From an uncultured Bradyrhizobium sp. (GTDB lineage: Bacteria > Pseudomonadota > Alphaproteobacteria > Rhizobiales > Xanthobacteraceae): DNA of 64,000 nt. The translations under genes and the position numbers were made by a program. The notes beneath the pieces are model-generated. The model saw nothing but the letters and a program-made list of their open reading frames with translations, was not told the origin of the DNA and searched no databases. Within the stretch, counting starts at the first letter, position 1; each line of letters starts with the position of its first letter. Of the stretch, positions 5,579 to 20,765 are shown piece after piece. The stretch is taken from positions 1 through 64,000 of the forward strand of contig NZ_CAKZHY010000164.1 of NCBI RefSeq assembly GCF_936928535.1, given 5' to 3'.

Positions 5579-7089
5579 TCAATGGTCCCGTCCGGCAGGG
5601 CAGGGCCGGTATAATGCGGTGTGCCGGAAAAGATGCCACTGAACTCCTTGAGTGGCGGCCCGAGCTTGACGCCGCCCCTGGTCAGTCGAAACTCGCGGAT
5701 CGCATGCTCGTGGTTGCCGCTTCGCTTCTTGACCACCGAGAGCGCGCGCCGCACCATTCCGCCGAGCTCGAAATAGCGCAGCATGAGCACGGCATCGCTC
5801 AGATAGCTGATGTCGAGGTTGGAATAGGTCGGGCCCATCAACCCATGCTGGGCAAGGATCAGGATGGTCAGCACGCCTTGCTGGGCGAGATAGCTGAGCA
5901 GCTCGTGCATCTGCAGGATGAGGAAGCGCTCGTCCGGCATTGCGTTGAGATAGCCGTTCAGACTGTCGATGATGACGATCTGGGCATTGTCGCGTTCGAC
6001 GCTCGCCCTCACGTTGGCCGCGAACTCGCCGGGCGAGAGCTCGGCGGGATCGATTTGCTGAAAGCGGATGTGGCCCGACTCGATATGCTTCTCGAGATCC
6101 AGGCCCAGCGTCCTGGCGCGCGCTTCGACCGTGCCGCGGCCCTCGTCGAACGCGAAGAATACGGCGTGCTCGCCGCGTTCCGCCGCCGCGATCGCATAGG
6201 TCAGCGCCACCGAGGATTTACCGACGCCGGCAGAGCCGATGAGGAGCGCGTTCGTTCCGCGCTCGAGGCCACCTCCCAGGAGCTGATCGAGTTCTGCACT
6301 GCCGCTCGGCGTGAAGTTCCCGACAAACGATTTGTGGTGCTCGGCTGCAATGAGGCGGGGGAAAATCTTGAGGCCACCCATCTCGATGATGAAGTCGTGA
6401 TAGCCGCCGCGAAAGCGGATGCCGCGCATCTTGATCACGCGAAGCCGGCGCCGCTCCGCGCCGTAGTCGATCGCAAGCTGCTCGAGCATGACGACGCCGT
6501 GCGCGATCGAATGCAGTTGCAAATCGTCTTGAGCAGAAGACAGGTCGTCGAGCAGGATGACCGTGCAGTTGCGGTTGGTGAAGAAGTGCTTCAAGGCCAG
6601 CACCTGCCGCCTGTAGCGCAGCGGGTTCTGGGCGAGCAGGCGCAGCTCGGACAGGCTGTCCAGCACGACGCGGGCGGGATTGACGCGCTCGACTTCCCTG
6701 AAGATCAGACTGGTGGTCTCGCTCAGCTCCATCTCGGCGGGATGAAACACCGTGAGCTCGCGGTCGGGATCGAGCGTCGTCTCGGGCGGCACCAGCTCGA
6801 AGATGTCGACGCCCTCCAGGGACCAGCCATGCCGTTGCGCGACCAGCGCCAGCTCACGTTTGGTTTCGGAGAGCGAAATGTAGAGCACGCGCTCGCCATA
6901 CCTTGCTCCGCGCAGCAGGAACTGAAGCGAGATCGTTGTCTTGCCGGTTCCAGGCCGTCCCTCATAGAGGTACATCCGGTTGGCGTCGAACCCGCCGCCG
7001 AGGATATCATCCAGGCCGTCGCTGCCGGTCGAAATTCGCAGCAAATCGGTGGGGTTGCTGCCTGAAGCAGCCTTGGATGAACCGGTCAT
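5575..7089 (-). CDS. KaiC-like double-domain RecA-fold ATPase
   Basis: The 504-residue protein has two KaiC/RecA domains. Walker A motifs are GRPGTGKTT (about 44-52) and GSAGVGKSS (285-293). Acidic residues follow where KaiC has its catalytic glutamates (ISLSETKRE; FAFDEGRG). The region matching the autophosphorylation loop of cyanobacterial KaiC reads ISYLSDAVLML (427-437), so the residues aligned with S431 and T432 are Ser428 and Tyr429. The C-terminus (FSGIFSGTP) also resembles KaiC. The start at MTGSSKAAS is preceded by gagggg. No kaiA or kaiB is present. The gene is coupled to a hybrid kinase, so a role as a signalling ATPase is more likely than a full clock. Confidence 0.9.
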   Translation of the reverse strand: MTGSSKAASGSNPTDLLRISTGSDGLDDILGGGFDANRMYLYEGRPGTGKTTISLQFLLRGARYGERVLYISLSETKRELALVAQRHGWSLEGVDIFELVPPETTLDPDRELTVFHPAEMELSETTSLIFREVERVNPARVVLDSLSELRLLAQNPLRYRRQVLALKHFFTNRNCTVILLDDLSSAQDDLQLHSIAHGVVMLEQLAIDYGAERRRLRVIKMRGIRFRGGYHDFIIEMGGLKIFPRLIAAEHHKSFVGNFTPSGSAELDQLLGGGLERGTNALLIGSAGVGKSSVALTYAIAAAERGEHAVFFAFDEGRGTVEARARTLGLDLEKHIESGHIRFQQIDPAELSPGEFAANVRASVERDNAQIVIIDSLNGYLNAMPDERFLILQMHELLSYLAQQGVLTILILAQHGLMGPTYSNLDISYLSDAVLMLRYFELGGMVRRALSVVKKRSGNHEHAIREFRLTRGGVKLGPPLKEFSGIFSGTPHYTGPALPDGTIE

Positions 7090-7171
7090 TGAAACCCCTC
7101 TATGCGCTCTGAACCCGCTATCTGCCCCGAACCTCCAAAGGGGTGGGCTGGGACAAAGTGGTCCCACAATT

Positions 7172-7198
7172 GGAACTCCCGAGCGGCGGTCGAGTTCC
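7172..7198. promoter_or_regulatory. Inverted repeat upstream of the KaiC-like gene (possible operator or stress promoter)
   Basis: GGAACTC and GAGTTCC form a perfect 7-bp inverted repeat with a 13-base spacer, 83 bases before the KaiC-like ATG. On the minus strand it also reads GGAAC-N16-AGTT, one base off the general-stress consensus GGAAC-N16-CGTT. A second smaller repeat (GGGAC/GTCCC) lies at 7150-7165. Either an operator or a weak stress promoter is possible. Confidence 0.25.
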
Positions 7199-7315
7199 CG
7201 GCGGTCTCTTCGTTCAGACAAAGTTGGGGCGAAAGGCCCACCCTCGTCGGTTCAAGAGTGAACACAAGCAGCTCACGAGCCATGGCTGCCACAACGGCTC
7301 GATAAGATTTGGGTT

Positions 7316-7823
7316 TTAGTGGATTTGCCGCCGGATGCGGTAGATCACGACCGCTTCGCCGTGATGAATCGTGGTCTTCTCGAGCAGATAGTTCGCCTTT
7401 TCCAGCACGCGGCGCGAGGCGCCGTGTTCGATGAGGACCAGCCCGATCAGCGACGCTAATTTCAGCTCCAAGAGTCCAATGTCAGTCAGCGCGGTCGCGA
7501 TTTCGCTGGCAAGCCCGTGGCCCCAGAACTCGCGCTTGAAGGTGTAGGCAATCTCGATCTCGTCGATGCCGTCCACGGGAATGTGCCGGATGCCGGGCGC
7601 GTCCGGCGAATGCGCCGTCCTTCGTGCGCAGCGCCCACAGCCCGAAACCGTGCCGATCCCAATGCGCCATGTTGGTCGCAAGATAAGTCTTGGTGACTGC
7701 GGCGGAGCGCACGCCGCCGAGATAGCGGGAGACCTCGGCATCGAGATGCAGCGCGACGAGGTCGGCGAGGTGGTCCTCGCGCAAGCGCTCGGCGGCCAAT
7801 CTGTTCGTTTCGAAGTGATCCAT
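7316..7823 (-). pseudogene. GNAT family N-acetyltransferase interrupted by a one-base frameshift
   Basis: The N-terminal part (MDHFETNRLAAERLREDHLA to AFAGRA) reads in one frame. The C-terminal part (GIRHIPVDGIDEIEIAYTF, FWGHGLASEIATALTDIG, RRVLEKANYLLEKTTI) continues in another. Removing one G from the GGG run at 7595-7597 joins them as FAGRA-GIRHIPVDG, giving an intact protein of about 168 residues of the RimJ/RimL-like type. This type acetylates protein or small-molecule amines with acetyl-CoA. Either the gene is newly broken or the base is a sequencing error. The rest of the frame is undamaged, which favours a recent event or an error. Confidence 0.8.
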
Positions 7824-11917: not shown

Positions 11918-12214
11918 ATGAGCACGACTTATAGCGCAACGAATGCGGCCCAGCCAACCGCATCGACGCCGCGAGTCTCCAGCGTTTTCAAGACCTTTTG
12001 GGCTGCCGCTCAAGAATGGCGCAAATGGGAGCGGCTGAAGGGCGTTTTATGTAACCTGAGTGATCGGGAGCTGATGGATATCGGCATTGCGCGTGGCGAA
12101 ATCAACTACGTCGCCTCGAACCGAGATGCGGACCCCCGTGGTATACGATCCAGTGAATGGCTGCGATATCTGCCAACGGTGGACGGCCATGTTGGAGCCA
12201 CCGACTTCCGTTAA
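11918..12214 (+). CDS. DUF1127 domain-containing protein (98 aa)
   Basis: After a Thr/Ala-rich N-terminus, the segment AAQEWRKWERLKGVLCNLSD continues to RELMDIGIARGEINYVAS. This is the YjiS-like DUF1127 pattern (W-x-x-R-x-x-L-x-x-L-x-DREL-x-DIG-I-x-R). Small DUF1127 proteins in alphaproteobacteria have been linked to RNA turnover and phosphate or nitrogen physiology; this copy has a longer tail than the shortest members. A strong ribosome binding site (ttggagg) lies seven bases before the ATG. Confidence 0.8.
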   Translation: MSTTYSATNAAQPTASTPRVSSVFKTFWAAAQEWRKWERLKGVLCNLSDRELMDIGIARGEINYVASNRDADPRGIRSSEWLRYLPTVDGHVGATDFR

Positions 12215-12266
12215 GGATCAGAAGCGGGCGATCAAGTGCCGACGCCGACACAGACCCGGCCTGCTT

Positions 12267-12727
12267 ATGCATGCGGTTCAGTCAGGGGGCCAAACTGTGG
12301 TGCTGAATAGACGGGATGCGTTGAAGATTTCCGCAGGAGCGATTCTTGCGCCAGCTCTCGTGCCAACTTTGGCCGCGGCACAATCGGCCCGCACAAAAAT
12401 CGTTCTGTTGGGCACGACCGGAGGGCCCCCCTTGCAAGTCGGAAGAGCTGCACCGTCAAATGCGGTCGTGGCCGGAGATGCACTTTATGTGGTTTATTGC
12501 GGCAACGGCGTTGCACGGCAGATTGTGCAAGCTGGCCTTAGACTCAACGCATTGAGGAGCATTTTCATCACGCACCAGCATTCGGATCACAATTTGGATT
12601 ACGGAAACCTTTTTTATTTCACCTGGTATTCAAGCCTGCGGAATCCAGTGAATTCTTATGGTCCACCGCCACTGACGGAAATGACAAAGAAGTTTTTCGA
12701 GTTAAATGCGTTCGACATCGACACTAG
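12267..12727 (+). pseudogene. N-terminal half of a Tat-exported metallo-beta-lactamase-fold hydrolase, cut by a mobile insertion
   Basis: A twin-arginine signal (NRRDALKISAGAILAPALVP) is followed by the beta-lactamase fold start (KIVLLGTTGGPP). The metal-binding motif is HQHSDH, in FITHQHSDHNLDYGNLFY. The sequence stops at the CTAG at 12724-12727, where an IS5-type element begins. The rest of the protein is found at 18434-18984: joining the two at CTAG restores the frame as FDIDTR-IRDEGKPDP, giving about 335 residues. An alternative start is the GTG at 12300. The half gene cannot give an active enzyme, since later metal ligands are in the other half. Confidence 0.88.
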
Positions 12728-13311
12728 GATGCGGACTCATTAAGGCGCAGCCATAACCTGATTGACGCGAGCTGAACGAAGGCAAGGTAGTTGGCGGCGA
12801 GCCTGTCGTAGCGCGTCGCCACCCGACGACATTGTTTGATCCTGTTGAAGAACCGCTCGACCTGATTGCGATCGCTGTAGAGATAGGGGCTGAAGCAGAT
12901 CGGATCGCTGCGATTGCTTTTCGGCGGGATGTTGGCCCACGCACCCTTTTTCATGGCCAGCTCTCTTATCCAATTGGCGTCATAGCCACGGTCGGCAAGC
13001 AGCATTGACCCGGGCTTCAGGCGAGAGAGCAGTTTTCCGGCAAATCGAACGTCGTGGGCCTCGCCGGGACTCAGCGCCAGCCGTACCGGCAGACCATTGC
13101 TATCGACCACCGCATGGATTTTGCTCGTCAAGCCGCCGCGGGACCTTCCCATCGATTGGCGCTGGTTTCTGTTGATGCAGGATCCATGCTGATGCACTCG
13201 GACAATCGAGGTGTCGATCATCTGGACAGCGGCATCATGTGCAGCTGCAAGTGCGTCTATGATGCGACCCCAGACACCAGCCCGCCGCCACCTGACGAAG
13301 CGTTGTAGCAA
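12724..13311 (-). CDS. IS5/IS427 transposase, catalytic frame (orfB)
   Basis: This frame carries the DDE catalytic core: first Asp in MIDTSIVRVHQHGS, second in LLADRGYDAN, and Glu in QVERFFNRIKQ. It overlaps orfA by 55 bases and lacks its own convincing start (the first codon is TTG), so it is expected to be translated by a frameshift from orfA. Its TAG stop lies inside the CTAG target sequence at the left edge, meaning the host target supplies the stop codon. All catalytic residues are present, so the transposase could be active. Confidence 0.8.
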   Translation of the reverse strand: MLQRFVRWRRAGVWGRIIDALAAAHDAAVQMIDTSIVRVHQHGSCINRNQRQSMGRSRGGLTSKIHAVVDSNGLPVRLALSPGEAHDVRFAGKLLSRLKPGSMLLADRGYDANWIRELAMKKGAWANIPPKSNRSDPICFSPYLYSDRNQVERFFNRIKQCRRVATRYDRLAANYLAFVQLASIRLWLRLNESAS

Positions 13312-13500
13312 GTGGTGTATGGGCCAAACGCTGCCGGCAGATCACGCCAGGGTGCTCCTGATCGAAGGACCCAGAAGATGCCATTAAGGACACGTCGGTC
13401 GTTCACCCGAGGAACGCCACGCGGCTTGTTCGGCAGCATCGGGCTTATCGCAGTCCATTCATAGTCGGCGAGTTCGTAGCGCATGATTCGAGTCCCCAGT
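12728..13500 (-). mobile_element. IS5 family (IS427 group) insertion sequence
   Basis: The element is about 773 bp. Its tips are gatgcggactc on the left and, read inward from the right, actggggactc (8 of 11 identical). It carries a DDE transposase in two overlapping frames on the minus strand. The left tip abuts CTAG, the target preferred by this group. The right tip at 13500 is not followed by CTAG, which fits a role as one arm of a larger composite unit. Confidence 0.75.
13257..13484 (-). CDS. IS5/IS427 transposase, N-terminal frame (orfA)
   Basis: The frame starts MRYELADYEWTAISPMLPNK, the conserved DNA-binding N-terminal domain of IS5-type transposases. It continues through GIFWVLRSGAPWRDLPAAFG to YTTCYN, after which family similarity moves to the next frame. 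In this group full transposase is normally made by ribosomal frameshifting between two frames, so the pair may be functional. The gene begins just inside the right end of the element. Confidence 0.8.
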   Translation of the reverse strand: MRYELADYEWTAISPMLPNKPRGVPRVNDRRVLNGIFWVLRSGAPWRDLPAAFGPYTTCYNASSGGGGLVSGVAS

Positions 13501-13658
13501 TTGGGAGTTTGAATCACGGGAGTTCCGCCAAACGCAACGCTTCTGGCTCGGCCCCGGTTCGGTGCTTACGGGCAGGAGAGGACATCAACCTGCCGACAAT
13601 CCCTGACGAATCCGTCGAAAATGGACCCATTGCCGACGGGTCGATGACTGTCCCGCGA

Positions 13659-14567
13659 TTACCTGCCATCGCGACTTGCGACCTGAAACTTAATTTCATC
13701 GACTTTCGAAAGCAGAAATCTCAGCAGCGGAGAGGTGTTAGCTTCGCTGTAGCCGATCACGAGGTCGACTATCGGCGGCTTGCCCTGGATTGGACGACTG
13801 ACGATGGATTTCGGCATCAAGTTTTGCGCGTAAAGCGGAAGCAGACTGATGCCGCCGGTGGAAGCGATCAGAGAACTCGCCATAGCCAAATTCTCCGCCT
13901 GATGCGCGGGCTTGATGGTCAATCCATGGCGTTTAAAGAAGTCCTCGATGACCGTCCGCAATACCGATGCCCTTATCGGTGATACGCCGATGTAGGTCTG
14001 CCCCACCAACTCCTGCGGTCGGATCGCGCTCTTGGCCGTAAGGGGGTGATCATATGGCATCAACACAATCACCGGATCATGCCTTAGCAGCTTGAATTGC
14101 AAGCCAGGCGCATTCTTCTCTGGACGAAGGAAGGCGAGATCGATCTTGCCGCGTACCAGTCCGGCGGCAAGGTCCGGAGAATCCTCGCTGTGGATCGTGA
14201 TCTCAGTGCTTGGCAGTTTACCGCGCAGGATACCCATCACGGCCGGGAGCCAGTCCATTTCATAGCCGGTGAGAAATCCGATCGAGAGAGATGATTTTGC
14301 CGGCTGCGCGGCGCGGCGCGCAGCTTCGCTGGCGGCTTCGACCTGCAACAGTGCTACGCGCGCGTGATCGAGAAATACCCGCCCCGATGGGGTCAGTTCG
14401 ATGCCGCGCGGTCCACGGATCAACAATTGCACCCCGAGTTCCAGCTCAAGATCATGAATCTGCCGGCTCAGCGACGGTTGTGCCGTGTGCAGGCGCTTTT
14501 GGGCCGCCACCGTGAGACTGCCTTCTTCGGCTACGGCGACGAAATAGCGGAGGTGTCGGAGTTCCAT
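13659..14567 (-). CDS. LysR family transcriptional regulator
   Basis: This full-length 302-residue LysR protein has an N-terminal winged helix (MELRHLRYFVAVAEEGSLTV, HTAQPSLSRQIHDLE) and a two-lobed effector domain from about residue 90 (SLSIGFLTGYEMDWLPAV). It is divergent from the SDR-SDR-GST operon, with a 181-base control region between, the normal LysR arrangement. It probably activates that operon in response to its substrate; the inducer cannot be read from the sequence. The gene is cargo of the IS-bounded insertion and appears intact. Confidence 0.92.
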   Translation of the reverse strand: MELRHLRYFVAVAEEGSLTVAAQKRLHTAQPSLSRQIHDLELELGVQLLIRGPRGIELTPSGRVFLDHARVALLQVEAASEAARRAAQPAKSSLSIGFLTGYEMDWLPAVMGILRGKLPSTEITIHSEDSPDLAAGLVRGKIDLAFLRPEKNAPGLQFKLLRHDPVIVLMPYDHPLTAKSAIRPQELVGQTYIGVSPIRASVLRTVIEDFFKRHGLTIKPAHQAENLAMASSLIASTGGISLLPLYAQNLMPKSIVSRPIQGKPPIVDLVIGYSEANTSPLLRFLLSKVDEIKFQVASRDGR

Positions 14568-14748
14568 GGAGCCAGTCCTGGAAAGTATGGCTTGAACCTT
14601 ACAAAGTCTTTCTCCCGAGCGCCAGTATTTCCTAAATCACTCCCAGACGCTGAAGCAGATCGATCAAGCGCGTTGCACGTGCTTCGTCGATCGGTCCATT
14701 CAGCCAGACCAAATGGGTATGGCAGTGGTTCTATTTGGGAGATGCATG

Positions 14749-15495
14749 ATGAGCCATCCAGTTGTCCTGATCACCGGCGGACTCACCGGCATCGGCCGCG
14801 CGACGGCGTTGGCCTTTGCTCGCGAAGGTGCTCGTGTCGTTGTTTCCGGTCGCCGCAACGATGCCGGCATGGCGCTCGCGGTTGAGCTGCGGGCGCTCGG
14901 CGCTGAAGCGGAGTTCGTTGGTGCCGATGTTCGACGCGAGAGCGAGGTGCAGGCGCTGGTCGAACGGACGGTCAAGCAGTTCGGCCACATCGACATCGCC
15001 GTGAACAATGCCGGTACCGAGGGAATGCCCGGCCCCGTCACCGATCAGAGTGCCGAGAGCTATACAGCGACGTTTGACACCAATGTGCTCGGCGTTCTCC
15101 TTTCGATGAAGCACGAACTGCGAGTGATGCAGCCGCAGGGATCGGGAAGCATCGTCAACATCTCCTCGACCATGGGCAGTCGCGGCGCGCCGAACGCGTC
15201 GCTCTACACTGCAAGCAAACACGCCGTCGAAGGTCTGACCAAATCCGCCGCATTGGAAGCCGCGGCCTTCGGCGTCCGTGTCAACGCGATCGCCCCCGGT
15301 CCGGTAGAGACCGCGATGCTTGACCGGTTCACCGGTTCGGCCGAGCGCAAGGCCGGGATGGTGGCCGGTATCCCGCTCAAGCGCGCGGGCAAACCGGACG
15401 AACTCGCCGATGCCATCCTGTTCGTGGCGTCGGACAAGGCATCGTTCATTACCGGCCAAATCATCAGCGTCAACGGCGGCCGGACGGCCGCGTAG
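14749..15495 (+). CDS. Short-chain dehydrogenase/reductase (SDR)
   Basis: The 248-residue protein is a classical SDR. The cofactor motif is TGGLTGIG near the N-terminus, NNAG follows near residue 90, and the catalytic YTASK comes after the SSTMGS serine segment. The C-terminal ITGQIISVNGGRTA is typical. An Arg after the second strand (SGRRND) suggests NADP(H). Two adjacent ATG codons (14746, 14749) are possible; the second has better spacing to ggga. It is the first gene of the LysR-controlled operon; the substrate is unknown. Confidence 0.9.
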   Translation: MSHPVVLITGGLTGIGRATALAFAREGARVVVSGRRNDAGMALAVELRALGAEAEFVGADVRRESEVQALVERTVKQFGHIDIAVNNAGTEGMPGPVTDQSAESYTATFDTNVLGVLLSMKHELRVMQPQGSGSIVNISSTMGSRGAPNASLYTASKHAVEGLTKSAALEAAAFGVRVNAIAPGPVETAMLDRFTGSAERKAGMVAGIPLKRAGKPDELADAILFVASDKASFITGQIISVNGGRTAA

Positions 15496-15533
15496 CTTCA
15501 CACCCAACCATCAGACACATCAGGAGATTAGTC

Positions 15534-16280
15534 ATGACCGACCTCATCAGCCGAACCGCCCTCGTCACCGGTGCTTCCCGCGGCATCGGCCGCGCCACCG
15601 CTCTCGCGCTGGCCAATGCCGGTGCTCGCGTTATCGTTCACTACGGCAATTCCGCCAAGGACGCGGACTCGCTGGTCGCCAAAATCCGCGAGGCCGGCGG
15701 GCGGGCCGACGGCGTCAAGGCAGACTTGTCGGCGCCAAATGGTGCGCACAAACTCGCGAACGAAGTTGGCAAACTCGTCGACGGTAAGCTCGATATTCTC
15801 GTCGCCAACGCGGGCATTTCGGTGCCGGCCAGCATCGAGGCGCAGACCGTCGAAGACTTCGACCGTATGTTCGCAGTCAATGTCCGCGCCCCGTTTTTCC
15901 TGGTGCAGCAATTGCTACCGCTGATGGCCGAAGGCTCGAGCATCGTGATGACGTCGTCGCTGGCGGCGCGCGCTGCTGTGGGCCAGTTGCCGGCTTATTC
16001 CGCCACCAAGGGCGCGATCGACACGCTTGTGAAGCATTTCGCGTCGCTGCTGGGATCTCGTGGTATCCGCGTCAACGCGGTCGCACCGGGGATCATCGAT
16101 ACCGACATGTCGGAGTTTTCCAAGACCGAGGAAGGCCGCAAATATGCTCTGGGGATGCAGGCGCTGCAACGAATCGGTCATGCGGATGACGTCGCGGAGG
16201 TCGTGACGTTCCTGGCGTCAGATTCTGCGCGCTGGGTCACCGGCGACACCGTCCAGGTGGGCGGCGGTTCGAAACTTTGA
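15534..16280 (+). CDS. SDR family oxidoreductase (3-oxoacyl-ACP reductase-like)
   Basis: This second classical SDR has 248 residues. TGASRGIGR is the cofactor motif, VANAGIS replaces the usual NNAG region, the catalytic motif is YSATK and it ends TGDTVQVGGGSKL. It follows the first SDR by 38 bases with a ribosome binding site (aggag), so the two are cotranscribed. Closest in style to FabG-like reductases of secondary metabolism. Two SDRs in one operon may act in sequence on the same alcohol/ketone or form a heteromer; this is not shown by the sequence. Confidence 0.9.
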   Translation: MTDLISRTALVTGASRGIGRATALALANAGARVIVHYGNSAKDADSLVAKIREAGGRADGVKADLSAPNGAHKLANEVGKLVDGKLDILVANAGISVPASIEAQTVEDFDRMFAVNVRAPFFLVQQLLPLMAEGSSIVMTSSLAARAAVGQLPAYSATKGAIDTLVKHFASLLGSRGIRVNAVAPGIIDTDMSEFSKTEEGRKYALGMQALQRIGHADDVAEVVTFLASDSARWVTGDTVQVGGGSKL

Positions 16281-16298
16281 CGCCCGGAGAAAGCAGCG

Positions 16299-16931
16299 AT
16301 GAAACTCTATCAGTCAAATGCCTCGCCCAATTCTCGCCGCGTGAGAATCTACCTCGCGGAGAAGGACATCTCGATGACCGTTGTGCCGGTCGACCTCGGC
16401 GCACGCGAACAGTTCTCCGAGGCCTATGCGACGATCAATCCGCGCCGTGTCGTCCCCGCTCTCGTTCTCGATGACGGATCGACCATCGGCGAAGTCCCAG
16501 CCATCATCCGCTATCTCGAGGAGACGTACCCTCACCGGCCACTGCTCGGAACTACAGCTAAGGAAAAGGCCGCAATTACCATGTGGGAGCGTCGGATGGA
16601 GCAGGAGGGATTCGCCGCAGTCATGGAGACGGTTCGTAACGGCGCCGCCGCTCTTAAGGGGCGCGCCATCGCGGGACCGCACGGCTACGACCAGATCCCT
16701 GAATTGGTCGAGCGTGGCCGTCGTCGCATTGCCGACTTCTATGACGATCTGGAGACCCGGTTGGTCGAAGTGCCATTCGTGGCTGGGGATCAGTTCAGCG
16801 TCGCTGATATCACAGCAATGGTCGCAATCGATTTTGCAAAAAAAGCGTTGAGCTTGGAGATACCACCCAAAAACGCAGGTTCGAGGCGTTGGTATGACGT
16901 CGTATCATCGCGTCCAAGCGCCGACGCGTAA
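16299..16931 (+). CDS. Glutathione S-transferase family protein
   Basis: The 210-residue protein has the thioredoxin-like N-terminal domain of GSTs (MKLYQSNASPNSRRVRIYLA, then PRRVVPALVLDDGSTIGEVP with the cis-Pro and the glutathione gamma-glutamyl contact). An all-helical C-terminal domain follows (VAGDQFSVADITAMVAIDFA). It begins 18 bases after the SDR stop and is the last gene of the operon. Together with two SDRs it suggests modification of an electrophilic or xenobiotic compound, by inference only. The C-terminus appears complete. Confidence 0.88.
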   Translation: MKLYQSNASPNSRRVRIYLAEKDISMTVVPVDLGAREQFSEAYATINPRRVVPALVLDDGSTIGEVPAIIRYLEETYPHRPLLGTTAKEKAAITMWERRMEQEGFAAVMETVRNGAAALKGRAIAGPHGYDQIPELVERGRRRIADFYDDLETRLVEVPFVAGDQFSVADITAMVAIDFAKKALSLEIPPKNAGSRRWYDVVSSRPSADA

Positions 16932-17061
16932 GGCTCTAGTCATGGAGGCCGGGACTCGCGGATTTTCTTGGTCGTCTCTGGCCCATCGAGACATTTGCTG
17001 CGGTTGCGGAAAGGCCGTCGGTGTCGGGACGAACCGGATATCGAAGAGGATTTATGATGGG

Positions 17062-17074
17062 GTGGACGCCCCGC
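17062..17074 (+). repeat. Left subterminal inverted repeat of the IS1111-type element
   Basis: The 13 bases gtggacgccccgc are the exact reverse complement of 18406-18418. They lie about 57 bases before the transposase start. Confidence 0.8.
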
Positions 17075-17130
17075 CGACGGCATCGATGTGCCAAAGTGGA
17101 GGTGTTGAGCACCACTTAAGGGAGGCGTCC

Positions 17131-18165
17131 GTGTCGGAGGTTAGCATAATCGGTCTGGATATCGCCAAGCATGTTTTCCACGCTCACGGAGCAGACGGGA
17201 AAGGGCGAACTGTATTCAGCAAACGAATCACTCGGGGAAAATTGCTGGATTTCTTTGCAGCCCAGCCGAGTTGTACCGTCGCGTTGGAGGCATGTGGCGG
17301 TGCTCATCACTGGGCGCGCCAGCTCACCCAGTTTGGCCACCAGGTACGGCTGATCCCACCGGCCTACGTAAAACCGTTTGTGAAGCGACAGAAGAACGAC
17401 GCGATCGATGCCGAGGCGATTTGCGAAGCCGCTCAGCGACCGAGCATGCGGTTTGTGGCCGTAAAGAGCGAAGAGCAACAAGCGGCGGGCTTGGTATTTC
17501 GAACCCGCGATCTGTTGGTGCGACAGCGAACTCAGCTCATCAACGCTATACGGGGACATCTCACGGAATATGGCTGGGTCGCACCCAAGGGGCCGTCGCA
17601 TGTAACGATGCTTGCCGATCTGATCGAGGAAGATGAGATGGTCAACTCGCTTCCCAAAGCGGCCCACGCGATGTTCCGAGTGATGTTAGACCTGCTCGAC
17701 AGTTTGAACGGCAAAATCGCGGATCTCGACAAGGAGATCGCAAGGCGCGCTCGGGAGGATGAAGTATCGCGCCGGCTCATGACCATTCCCGGTATCGGCC
17801 CAATCTCAGCCACTGCGATCGCAGCCTTAGCTCCGCCAGCTGAAACCTTTGCCAAGGGTCGTGACTTTGCCGCCTGGCTAGGTCTCACGCCTCTTCAAAG
17901 ATCGACGGGCGGCAAGCAGAAGCTCGGTGCAACATCCAAGATGGGCGAACGCACGCTGAGACGTCTACTCATCATCGGCAGTAGCGCCGTTGTAAAGCAG
18001 GCGAGCAAACGTGGCGCCCCTAAAGGCTCCTGGCTCGAACAGATGCTGGCTCGCAAGCCGCGTATGCTGGTAACAGTCGCACTCGCCAACAAGATGGCGC
18101 GGATCGTATGGGCGCTGCTGCTGAAGCAGGAGAACTACAAGGCTCCGGTCGCCGCCAAGGCATAA
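17131..18165 (+). CDS. IS110/IS1111 family transposase
   Basis: The 344-residue protein begins at a GTG with a good ribosome binding site (aagggagg). The N-terminal DEDD (RuvC-like) domain has its first Asp in IIGLDIAKHVF, then Glu in ALEACGG and the DAIDAEA motif with the remaining acidic residues. The C-terminal Transposase_20 domain has IPGIGPISATAIAALA and a Ser-containing segment (LQRSTGGKQKLG). The frame continues upstream to 16894 but without family similarity. All recognisable catalytic residues are present, so it could be active. Confidence 0.92.
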   Translation: MSEVSIIGLDIAKHVFHAHGADGKGRTVFSKRITRGKLLDFFAAQPSCTVALEACGGAHHWARQLTQFGHQVRLIPPAYVKPFVKRQKNDAIDAEAICEAAQRPSMRFVAVKSEEQQAAGLVFRTRDLLVRQRTQLINAIRGHLTEYGWVAPKGPSHVTMLADLIEEDEMVNSLPKAAHAMFRVMLDLLDSLNGKIADLDKEIARRAREDEVSRRLMTIPGIGPISATAIAALAPPAETFAKGRDFAAWLGLTPLQRSTGGKQKLGATSKMGERTLRRLLIIGSSAVVKQASKRGAPKGSWLEQMLARKPRMLVTVALANKMARIVWALLLKQENYKAPVAAKA

Positions 18166-18405
18166 CCTTAGCGGACCTGAGGTCGTCAGAGATGTAGTCG
18201 GTCGAAGGAGGGTATGGCACACAGTCGGCGAGACGAGGCCGGAAGAACCAGGCGTACTCATCGTGCCTAGAGCACGCTTTTATGATTTGGTTCCGGTCTG
18301 CGAACTCCCATACGGGCCCGCGGCTTCATCGCTGCACCATCAGAGGCCGGACAGATGGCAGCATCCGACTACGTGCCGATCTTCCTCAAAAATCGCTTGC
18401 ATCTC
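18166..18405 (+). ncRNA. Candidate guide (bridge/seek) RNA region of the IS1111-type element
   Basis: This 240-base non-coding region lies between the transposase stop and the right inverted repeat. In IS110-family elements a structured RNA made from a non-coding end guides target choice, and in the IS1111 group it is located downstream of the transposase gene. The position and size fit; the RNA fold and its guide loops were not worked out, so the call rests on family knowledge. Confidence 0.35.
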
Positions 18406-18418
18406 GCGGGGCGTCCAC
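18406..18418 (-). repeat. Right subterminal inverted repeat of the IS1111-type element
   Basis: gcggggcgtccac is the exact complement of the left copy at 17062-17074. One base separates it from the IS5-type remnant. Confidence 0.8.
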
Positions 18419-18419
18419 A

Positions 18420-18433
18420 GATGAGTACGCGCC
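18420..18433 (-). repeat. Remnant of an IS5/IS427-type terminal inverted repeat
   Basis: Read inward from CTAG, the sequence is ggcgcgtactcatc. The left IS5 tip reads gatgcggactcatt: 10 of 14 bases agree and both abut CTAG. It is the only trace of a right-hand IS5 copy. Confidence 0.5.
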
Positions 18434-18984
18434 CTAGAATTCGCGATGAAGGCAAGCCTGATCCCAGAGCAATGCTTGTCTCGCATGAGATAGAAGCGGC
18501 CGGAACTGTGATGCAAGACGACAATGTGAGGGTCAGCTGCATCTTGGCTGACCATCCACCGCTTCCGGTGGCACTGTCGTATCGCTTTGACACTGCGGAT
18601 CGCTCCATCGTGTTCTCTGGAGATACCCGAAAGACAGATGCTCTAATTGACCTGGCTAAAGACGCGGATGTATTCGTGTGCGAGGCGCAATATCTTCGGG
18701 GAGCGCGCCAAGTGCTCGATGGAGCCGTGAAAGTAGGCCGGTTTGATAAGGAGACCGCAGACAACCCTTTCAAAAGCATATCAGGCAATGCACTTACGGT
18801 CGAGCAAGCAGGCGAAGTGGCCCAAGCCGCAGGGGTCAAAAAGCTGGTGCTAAGTCATTTCGTACCAGGAAACGGCGCCGTTCCCGATCAGGTGTTCGTA
18901 GACGAAGCTCGCAAAGCTTTCTCCGGCGAAATCATAGCGGGCCGGGACTTACTCGAAATTAAGGCCTCAACCGTTAGCCATTAA
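18434..18984 (+). pseudogene. C-terminal half of the split metallo-beta-lactamase-fold hydrolase
   Basis: From the CTAG onward the frame reads RIRDEGKPDPRAMLVSHEIE, continues through CILADHPPLPVALSYRFDTA and DRSIVFSGDTRKTDALIDLA (the SGDT metal-ligand region), and ends with LVLSHFVPGN (late His ligand) and EIKASTVSH. These are the second-half motifs missing from the fragment at 12267-12727. The frame is open to 18355 through the IS1111 end, so a hybrid protein starting upstream could be made but would lack the HxHxDH site and the Tat signal. Confidence 0.88.
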
Positions 18985-19073: not shown

Positions 19074-20765
19074 TCAGCGTGCCGACGGCACCACGGCTGC
19101 AGCCTCGACGAGGTCACCGATGCAGAAATGGGCCATGTGCGCGACAGCTTCGGCGCTGTGATAGTCGCCGAATTCGGCCGTGGCTTCCTTGCCGGCGTAC
19201 ATCCGGGCGATGCCGGCGCCACCGGGGTGATGCGGGGCCCATTCAGTGATGTCGTAAACCTTCCCTGCAATGATGACCCAGCAGTCGTCCCGCGTATTGT
19301 GCCGGGCGACCTCCGCGCGCGCGACGGGCCGCCGCTCCCTGGCGGCGGCGGCCGGCGTCCAGAGCTTGCCGGGAATGGTGGCGTAGTTGGCCTTGGCGGC
19401 CCGGCGGAAATCCCACGGCCCCAATCTCTTGTAAGGCAGCTCGGTGCCGATATTGCGGGCGTCGTAGGCGTAGATCCAGGAATCGTCCTCGCCGCCGCGC
19501 TTGTCATGGGCAAACGCCGGGCTGACCCGCTCGTCCAGCTTCTCGAGCAGCGCCTTCTGCTCGGCGGTGTCCTTGGCCCGCAGATGATCGAAGGCGAATT
19601 TGGAGCCGAGCTGGAAGCGGGTGGCGCGGTAATGCCGCACGCGCTCGTAATGCAGCAGCGCTGTCGCCACATCGTCCTTGTTCAGGGCGAAGGCGCTGCC
19701 GAGCGCGGCGGCGTCCTCGAAGGACTGCGCGGCGCCCTGGCCAAACGTCGGAAGCATCGGGTGCGCTGCATCGCCGAGCAGACAGATCCGGCCTTGCACC
19801 CAGGTTTCGAGCGCGTCGCGATCGTAGAGGCCCCACTTTGTGGGACGCACGATCGCCCCTGCCAGGGCCAGCAGGTCGTCGCGACTGGGGCTGCCCTCGA
19901 ATGCCTCGCCCACCTCGCGAAGGATCTCCTCCCGACCGACCGGAAACCAGTCGCCTTCCTCCTGCTCGAACGCGGCAGAGTCGGGCTCATAGCGGGCGAT
20001 CCACACGTTCAGCAACTCGCCGCCGCGGACCCAATAGGTCGTCGCCCCGCTCTTGTCGTTGCGATGCCGGTCCATGCTGAAGGAGTCGATCGGATTGTTG
20101 TCGAGCGCCCTGCCGTCGGCCTTGCGGAGCGAGGCGACCGCCGTCCGCGGAATGAGTCCGCGAAAGCAGGTCACCTCGGTCCAGCGCTTGGGACGCGGGT
20201 TCTGCCACGCCAGGTGCAACGTGGCAGAGTTGATCCCGTCGGCCCCGACCAGAACCTCTCCCGTGGCGGTTCGGCCATTCGAAAAGCTGGCCGTCACCTC
20301 GCTTGCGCTCTGGTGCAACTGTGTCAGCCGGCAATCCATATGCACGGTGATCGGGCATGGCTCTCCGCTATCGGGACCGAACGCGAACACCCGCTTGTAG
20401 AGGCACATCAACAGGTCCAGCCTGTGCATGTGATGAAATCCGGCACCATCGCCGGCTGCCGTGACGTGATCGAAGGGCCGCTTCGTGACGCTGCCATCCG
20501 CGTTGAACTGCCGGGTCGATTCCAGAATGGCCGCCCGGCCACCGTCGATCGCCCCATCGGGGCCCTTGGGATCGCCGCCATCGAGATCGACACCCAGCCA
20601 ACGGCATAGCCGCGCTCCGTTAGGCGGGATGTTCAGGCCGGCGCCCGCTGTGCTGGGCACCTTGGTCTGCTCGTAGACATCGACCGATGCGAAGACGCCG
20701 GACTGCCGCAGCGCCAGGGCCGTCATCAACCCGCCCATTCCGGCACCGATGATCACCGCCCGCAT
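19074..20765 (-). CDS. FAD-dependent monooxygenase with C-terminal cytochrome b5 domain
   Basis: The 563-residue protein starts MRAVIIGAGMGGLMTALALR, the dinucleotide-binding motif of salicylate-hydroxylase-type flavoproteins. Further motifs are VGADGINS and LLGDAAHPMLP, which bind FAD. From about residue 475 a cytochrome b5 domain follows (ARHNTRDDCWVIIAGKVYDI), with heme ligands H513 in HPGG and H536 in GDYHSAEA. The fusion would pass electrons between heme and flavin in one polypeptide; the substrate (an aromatic acid in relatives) is not known. The start is preceded by aaggatgacagg. No partner gene is adjacent. Confidence 0.88.
   Translation of the reverse strand: MRAVIIGAGMGGLMTALALRQSGVFASVDVYEQTKVPSTAGAGLNIPPNGARLCRWLGVDLDGGDPKGPDGAIDGGRAAILESTRQFNADGSVTKRPFDHVTAAGDGAGFHHMHRLDLLMCLYKRVFAFGPDSGEPCPITVHMDCRLTQLHQSASEVTASFSNGRTATGEVLVGADGINSATLHLAWQNPRPKRWTEVTCFRGLIPRTAVASLRKADGRALDNNPIDSFSMDRHRNDKSGATTYWVRGGELLNVWIARYEPDSAAFEQEEGDWFPVGREEILREVGEAFEGSPSRDDLLALAGAIVRPTKWGLYDRDALETWVQGRICLLGDAAHPMLPTFGQGAAQSFEDAAALGSAFALNKDDVATALLHYERVRHYRATRFQLGSKFAFDHLRAKDTAEQKALLEKLDERVSPAFAHDKRGGEDDSWIYAYDARNIGTELPYKRLGPWDFRRAAKANYATIPGKLWTPAAAARERRPVARAEVARHNTRDDCWVIIAGKVYDITEWAPHHPGGAGIARMYAGKEATAEFGDYHSAEAVAHMAHFCIGDLVEAAAVVPSAR

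Follow-up and report, generated by a model that had tools for sequence, protein, structure and literature searches.

Class A flavoprotein monooxygenases are textbook single-component enzymes driven by NAD(P)H. In this study, we asked what a cytochrome b5 domain does at the C-terminus of such an enzyme, encoded within a 64,000-nucleotide stretch of DNA (hereafter the window) from an uncultured Bradyrhizobium sp. A first-pass annotation of this DNA had placed a flavin monooxygenase with a C-terminal b5 domain at 19074-20765. These coordinates were right; the gene lies on the minus strand, as a single unbroken open reading frame (ORF) whose translation gives 563 residues and a stop. The ORF stays open up to 20858, and the start at 20765 is supported because relatives begin at the same residue: 33/36 full-length relatives have ATG at residue 1, and the other 3/36 have a V or L codon there (possibly GTG or TTG). 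Pfam analysis of the 563-residue protein gave two matches above the curated cut-offs, Cyt-b5 at residues 483-552 (E = 4e-23, 81.6 bits) and FAD_binding_3 (E = 3e-16). The features of the gene are as follows.

19074-20765, minus strand: gene for the b5-fused class A FAD monooxygenase (563 aa; the coordinates include the stop), from the ORF, Pfam and 36 full-length homologs with identical domain order
19446-20765, minus strand: FAD monooxygenase domain, residues 1-440 (boundary approximate), from Pfam FAD_binding_3 and the structural alignment of the model
20730-20747, minus strand: GxGxxG motif, residues 7-12; G7, G9 and G12 invariant in 37/37
20217-20240, minus strand: DG motif, residues 176-183, ending in Leu183 instead of the usual Arg; from the alignment, codon checked
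19761-19775, minus strand: GD motif, residues 331-335; G331, D332 and H335 invariant in 37/37
19320-19445, minus strand: fast-evolving linker, residues 441-482; median dN/dS 0.27, mean identity 50% to the window protein
19110-19319, minus strand: cytochrome b5 domain, residues 483-552; Pfam Cyt-b5, 81.6 bits
19227-19229, minus strand: H513, first predicted heme ligand (HPGG); His in 37/37, codon checked
19158-19160, minus strand: H536, second predicted heme ligand; His in 37/37, codon checked

The GxGxxG, DG and GD motifs of group A flavoprotein monooxygenases were all present and invariant in 37/37 full-length sequences (36 homologs and the window protein), except for the final residue of the DG motif. 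Both heme-ligand histidines, which the first-pass annotation had numbered exactly as H513 and H536, were conserved in all 37, HPGG included; these sequences are not fully independent, as L018 is nearly identical to L026, and one genome supplied both L028 and L047. Judged from its sequence, the window ORF is a real two-domain protein of flavin/heme type with both predicted ligands. A frameshift or assembly error joining two genes, which the annotation had itself named as the objection to its reading, has a negligible chance: it is excluded by the 36 full-length homologs, each in another record and in one reading frame, and nothing was found in its favour. The assignment to a salicylate-hydroxylase type held at the superfamily level and no further. 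The NCBIfam salicylate 1-monooxygenase model TIGR03219 scored 119.5 bits against a cut-off of 446.35, and none of the NCBIfam matches listed (25 of 47) came near its cut-off, all lying far below.

We constructed a model of the window protein using AlphaFold2, which was of moderate quality (mean pLDDT 75, pTM 0.80). The first ~440 residues aligned to TrlE (8rqh; Z 36.5, rmsd 2.9 A, 363 residues aligned) and to NicC (8uiq; Z 36.0, rmsd 2.9 A, 364 aligned). The fold neighbours were class A hydroxylases, including NicC, vanillate 1-hydroxylase and 3-hydroxybenzoate 6-hydroxylase, in a PDB comparison list that covers mainly residues 1-453. For the b5 domain, the top-scoring solved relative was the b5 domain of flavocytochrome b2 (3ks0, 60 bits). 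Residues 516-535 of the b5 core had pLDDT values under 50, which makes the model unsuited to reading a FAD-heme distance.

A search for proteins with the same two-domain order, suggested along with the annotation, was productive. A scan of genome contigs returned 54 loci, and 43 of them (L009-L051) were taken as family members. Full-length homologs with the identical domain order numbered 36 of the 43, counted as ORFs of more than 500 residues and leaving out L036, L049 and L050 (broken) and L038, L046, L048 and L051 (contig ends). The records carrying the fused gene include Bradyrhizobium, Ruegeria, Pseudomonas fluorescens, Streptomyces, Nocardioides and Methylibium. The gene also occurs in metagenome-assembled genomes (MAGs) of Thermoleophilia and Acidimicrobiia. 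Some MAG labels in the set may be wrong (one MAG is called Klebsiella). A plasmid collection held one record with at least 80% query coverage, a Streptomyces plasmid (L092). A gammaproteobacterial MAG (G1025) carries two fused copies, L028 and L047, in differing contexts.

The annotation had called this design unusual, and it is indeed rare. Within the window's genus, 16/265 genomes carry the gene, including the window's own and one (G564) with a broken copy; in the sample of the window's class it was found in 1/385 genomes, the window's own, and the family to which the Pseudomonas record belongs gave 1/398, that record itself. The only Cyt-b5 match in the window's genome (7.5 Mb) is the domain of the fused gene, and in a phylum sample a Cyt-b5 match at E 1e-8 was found in 2/398 genomes, again including the window's own. 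The broken G564 copy (L126) is in two pieces, with the break inside the FAD domain near residue 294, and has apparently decayed. Rare as it is, the design is not unknown: the relevant passage of a 2026 paper (PMC13386531) describes OnpA, a bacterial monooxygenase of 558 residues that needs its fused b5 domain to be active, and cites Xiao et al. 2012 (J. Bacteriol. 194:1342) for it. The architecture is thus not new, having been represented in print by OnpA since 2012.

We then built a tree from the 37 fused sequences and 25 unfused ones, omitting L070 and L072, which were in the wrong frame. The fused sequences were monophyletic (support 0.974), on a long stem, and fell into two clades: clade A, with 21 members including the window protein, and clade B, with 16 members. 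The window protein is 60-66% identical to clade B, in which 13/16 homologs are 555-559 residues long. Among close pairs, the median dN/dS was 0.068 for the b5 domain, 0.090 for the FAD domain and 0.27 for the linker; mean identity to the window protein was 80%, 77% and 50%, respectively. By these measures, conservation of the b5 domain equals or exceeds that of the FAD domain, the linker is less conserved, and both domains are under purifying selection. Monophyly, conservation and patchy spread therefore indicate a fusion that is old and kept by selection, with the scattered occurrence expected of a horizontally moved gene. The b5-fused design is a conserved, rare family spread across several phyla.

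The surroundings of the window gene were then analysed. Pfam identified feoA and feoB upstream, and a FeoB 95.8% identical lies upstream of the fused gene in L114 as well. Downstream, 89 bp from the stop, an MBL-fold hydrolase gene is represented by its C-terminal part, and its N-terminal part follows 5.6 kb further on; the two parts match consecutive stretches of an intact protein in L015. This hydrolase gene (window 12087-18984) appears to be split by a 5.6 kb insert carrying a DDE transposase, a LysR regulator, two SDRs, a GST and an IS110-family transposase, with a G+C content of 60% (67% in the fused gene). An MBL-fold hydrolase gene stands convergent, just downstream of the fused gene, in the window (18355-18984), in L015 (3846-4682) and in L037 (3183-4277), so that both clades are represented; it is possibly a pathway partner. 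Near the window gene, we found no electron carrier, no catechol dioxygenase and no ferredoxin-type reductase.

To assess the coenzyme site, we compared motif residues between fused and unfused enzymes. In p-hydroxybenzoate hydroxylase (PHBH), the DG pair occupies positions 159-160, and NADPH binding has been linked to Arg166 along with other residues (PMC3546652). Counted along the motif (Asp plus 7), the equivalent residue of the window protein is Leu183. Position 183 is Leu in 36/37 fused members and Arg in L039 only, whereas the unfused relatives have Arg in 21/25 and Gln in 4/25, a set obtained from 40 extracted candidates after 12 were dropped for length, L078 by name, and L070 and L072 for wrong frame. 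Among the solved chains whose alignment was shown, the residue is Arg in 4/5 and Gln in 1/5 (GsMNX1). At another place in the chain, G41-A-G43 is present in 37/37 fused sequences, and a 'GxG' in the coenzyme loop is given as the mark of NADH-using enzymes in the pertinent passage of PMC6315137. Since the DG-motif Arg is replaced by Leu while the GxG is kept, the sequences suggest that the NAD(P)H site of the fused family has been changed, not necessarily lost. The lone full-length fused member seen with the DG-motif Arg, L039, offers a natural test case for coenzyme use.

Gene context had also been proposed for examination. A conserved neighbourhood that might point to the substrate was lacking, as no neighbour cluster was common to more than 3/44 loci; the clusters above that number were the gene itself or its shadow frames. 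Some clade B contexts nevertheless look catabolic on the basis of their gene content. In P. fluorescens L033, a [2Fe-2S] reductase (L033 9866-10825) begins ~190 bp downstream of the monooxygenase, and the same locus has a catA that passes the NCBIfam catechol 1,2-dioxygenase model TIGR02439 (409 versus 392 bits). In Streptomyces L044, the neighbours are an intradiol dioxygenase, a dienelactone hydrolase, a cycloisomerase-family protein, a CoA-transferase subunit and a LysR regulator, together with a [2Fe-2S] reductase that is a homolog of the L033 one (37%). Most of these neighbours also have homologs on plasmid L092. We rejected the reading of the Streptomyces context as a hydroxyquinol pathway: NCBIfam favours the (chloro)catechol dioxygenase family, though below the cut-off (292.6 versus 359 bits), and no model backs the name maleylacetate reductase for the Fe-ADH protein.

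Electron carriers recurred in clade B. In Bradyrhizobium altum L035, a ferredoxin reductase and a Fer2 ferredoxin lie directly downstream; the small Rieske ferredoxins of L028 and L029 resemble each other (70%), and L050 has another. Overall, a ferredoxin or [2Fe-2S] reductase was present within 8 kb in 7/9 clade B loci with full flanks (L050 and L092 being assigned to this clade by identity, not by the tree), and all seven were confirmed by Pfam. The same search, run with longer flanks on all three sets, found none in 22 loci of clade A, the window's clade, and none in 26 unfused class A controls; of these controls, L128 extends less than 0.4 kb to the right of the gene, and the left flanks of L053 and L140 are shortened. 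The nine short-flank clade B loci (L030, L031, L032, L034, L037, L041, L042, L043 and L045) had no carrier in a looser first run, the L034 hit of that run being a shadow frame inside the gene, which brings clade B overall to 7/18. Fisher's exact test gave P = 5e-6 for 7/9 against 0/26, and 9e-5 after related loci were merged to 5/7, with a carrier motif that was first loose and was tightened after the hits had been seen, and with controls mostly of the window's genus. Oxygenase-size Rieske proteins were not counted as carriers (two each in L018 and L026; one of 445 residues in L133, from the motif only), and hits in L011 and L121 were judged spurious by eye. In L018 (6567-7814) and L026 (about 6550-7790), from two Rhodospirillales MAGs, the monooxygenase has a gene for a VanA-like Rieske oxygenase upstream, at a distance of 135-151 bp. 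The changed DG-motif residue that marks the fused family and the carrier genes near clade B loci are what is new here.

We next considered which other oxygenases these carriers might serve. The Streptomyces plasmid record is devoid of Rieske matches, and the one P450 in it that exceeds the cut-off is 1.1 Mb off; on the L044 chromosome, the nearest Rieske match is more than 3 Mb away. In P. fluorescens C2, the contig of the gene has none of the genome's 13 Rieske matches, and the genome has no P450 match. Because Rieske and P450 partners are absent or distant, no usual oxygenase partner lies nearby in the Streptomyces and P. fluorescens lineages, save the fused monooxygenase itself. The other carriers have candidate partners. 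Four gammaproteobacterial genomes are Rieske-rich (40, 21, 57 and 25 matches), the contigs that carry the L028 and L029 ferredoxins also encode oxygenase-sized Rieske proteins, at about 8 and 15 kb as judged from the coordinates, and L050 has a Rieske oxygenase within the same cluster. In B. altum, a P450 ~15 kb away could use the ferredoxin pair.

These findings point to a flavohemoprotein monooxygenase, probably of the OnpA kind, in which one chain, conserved as a unit, combines a class A FAD hydroxylase domain with a b5 domain at the C-terminus. We favour this assignment because of the domains, the invariant ligands, the selection on both domains, the monophyly, the OnpA precedent, the size of clade B proteins, the fold and the catechol-cleavage neighbours. 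OnpA is reported to be the ortho-nitrophenol 2-monooxygenase of Alcaligenes sp. NyZ215, containing FAD and heme. By analogy with class A chemistry, reduced FAD would bind O2, and the resulting C4a-hydroperoxyflavin would hydroxylate a carbon of a phenol or aromatic acid. This position may bear a leaving group, as is said of o-nitrophenol for OnpA, and a catechol or o-quinone would result. The b5 heme b would exchange single electrons with FAD and would be needed for turnover. We lean towards direct reduction of FAD by NAD(P)H and, for some members of the family, an additional route through the heme from a ferredoxin-type partner. The window's enzyme could have an entirely different substrate: the protein belongs to clade A and is 60-66% identical to clade B, and its gene surroundings yielded no catechol dioxygenase or ferredoxin-type reductase.

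How electrons reach the flavin can be read in several ways. If NAD(P)H reduces FAD directly, the b5 domain would be a required accessory (an electron store, a docking surface or a stabilising element), and the clade B reductases would act on quinone, as OnpB does; this is a plausible account, to which we give a little less than even confidence. OnpA was reportedly assayed with NADPH, and OnpB, encoded next to it, is said to be an o-benzoquinone reductase. The L033 reductase, with catA in the same locus, fits this pattern; by analogy, the reductase in such an OnpA-like locus may simply be a quinone reductase. The kept G41-A-G43, an NADH-type motif in the relevant part of PMC6315137, also agrees with direct reduction, but the Leu found in 36/37 at the counterpart of PHBH Arg166 (as the motif is described in PMC3546652) argues against it. 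Moreover, the carriers include Rieske ferredoxins and a small Fer2 ferredoxin, and proteins of these kinds are not known to reduce quinones. In another reading, which is possible but doubtful, the heme is the entry port, with electrons passing from a ferredoxin or PDR-type reductase through b5 to FAD in place of direct NAD(P)H reduction. The Arg-to-Leu change, the carriers in 7/9 full-flank clade B loci against 0/26 unfused controls, and the lack of an ordinary partner near the reductases of the Streptomyces plasmid and P. fluorescens C2 favour it. It also has precedents, as passages in the respective sources describe COQ6, a class A enzyme, as inactive with NAD(P)H and working with FDXR/FDX2 (PMC7615680), and the FAD of QhpG as not reduced by NAD(P)H (PMC7876137). 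On the other side, partners were seen in 0/22 clade A loci and in 7/18 of clade B in all, the controls come mostly from the window's genus, and the carrier motif had been narrowed once the first hits were known. The L028, L029 and L050 carriers share their contigs or cluster with Rieske oxygenases, in genomes with 21-57 Rieske matches, and the B. altum pair could serve its P450. OnpA, too, is reported to work with NADPH alone.

The broadest form of the entry-port reading is unlikely: that the heme replaced direct NAD(P)H reduction throughout the family, with loss of the DG-motif Arg as its mark, and that ferredoxins or PDR-type reductases joined it as partners on independent occasions, at a minimum in Pseudomonas, Streptomyces, Bradyrhizobium altum and other gammaproteobacteria. 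Alternatively, the heme could be a built-in quinone reductase: once hydroxylation has expelled a leaving group, reduced b5 would give the o-quinone its two electrons singly so that catechol is released and not quinone. Single-electron heme chemistry and the catechol-cleavage neighbours of L033, L044 and L092 would fit such a role, but a separate quinone reductase, as OnpB is said to be, would then be superfluous, and we regard it as quite improbable. Electron exit, in which FAD oxidises the substrate and b5 hands the electrons to an acceptor, as in flavocytochrome b2, is more improbable still; it agrees with the best-scoring solved relative of the b5 domain (3ks0), but the flavin domain is a class A hydroxylase and not an FMN lactate dehydrogenase, and the neighbouring reductases would donate electrons, not accept them. 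The extra electron route suggested by the first-pass annotation thus gained some indirect support from the DG-motif change and the clade B carriers. For clade B, the evidence modestly favours a heme that helps to deliver electrons; for clade A, to which the window belongs, it has little to say.

The OnpA kind breaks the picture of the single-component, NAD(P)H-driven enzyme, since its heme domain is reported as required in the passage cited above (PMC13386531). The fused family provides two clues to the electron path, a coenzyme motif altered at one residue and, in one clade, ferredoxin-type genes that recur nearby. It could also matter for the breakdown of nitro- or chloro-aromatic pollutants. 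Among known systems, flavocytochrome b2 also has a b5 domain fused to a flavin domain. In that enzyme, however, the b5 domain is N-terminal, the flavin domain is an FMN lactate dehydrogenase and electrons exit through the heme, whereas the window protein has a C-terminal b5 domain on a class A FAD enzyme. COQ6 belongs to a separate family and is said to lack a fused heme domain. Its likeness is that of a class A enzyme fed by a ferredoxin couple, as PMC7615680 describes, and it is a model for heme entry. TrlE, NicC and 3-hydroxybenzoate 6-hydroxylase have the fold in common with the window protein (Z 33-36) and, like salicylate hydroxylase, carry the GxGxxG, DG and GD motifs; these unfused class A enzymes are without a b5 domain, and the solved chains are 16-27% identical to the window protein.

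The closest known system is OnpA, and it differs in context, a feature that does not strictly define the kind. OnpA is reportedly encoded together with OnpB and with OnpC, a catechol 1,2-dioxygenase, whereas no catechol dioxygenase or reductase was found near the window gene, which adjoins feoAB and the broken MBL-fold gene. The likeness lies in the protein itself. The window protein is also a FAD monooxygenase of ~560 residues with a fused b5 domain, in what is said to be the domain order of OnpA, and it has the two conserved heme-ligand histidines on which OnpA activity reportedly depends. The window ORF is therefore likely to encode a homolog of the OnpA kind, a likeness drawn from architecture, size and context.
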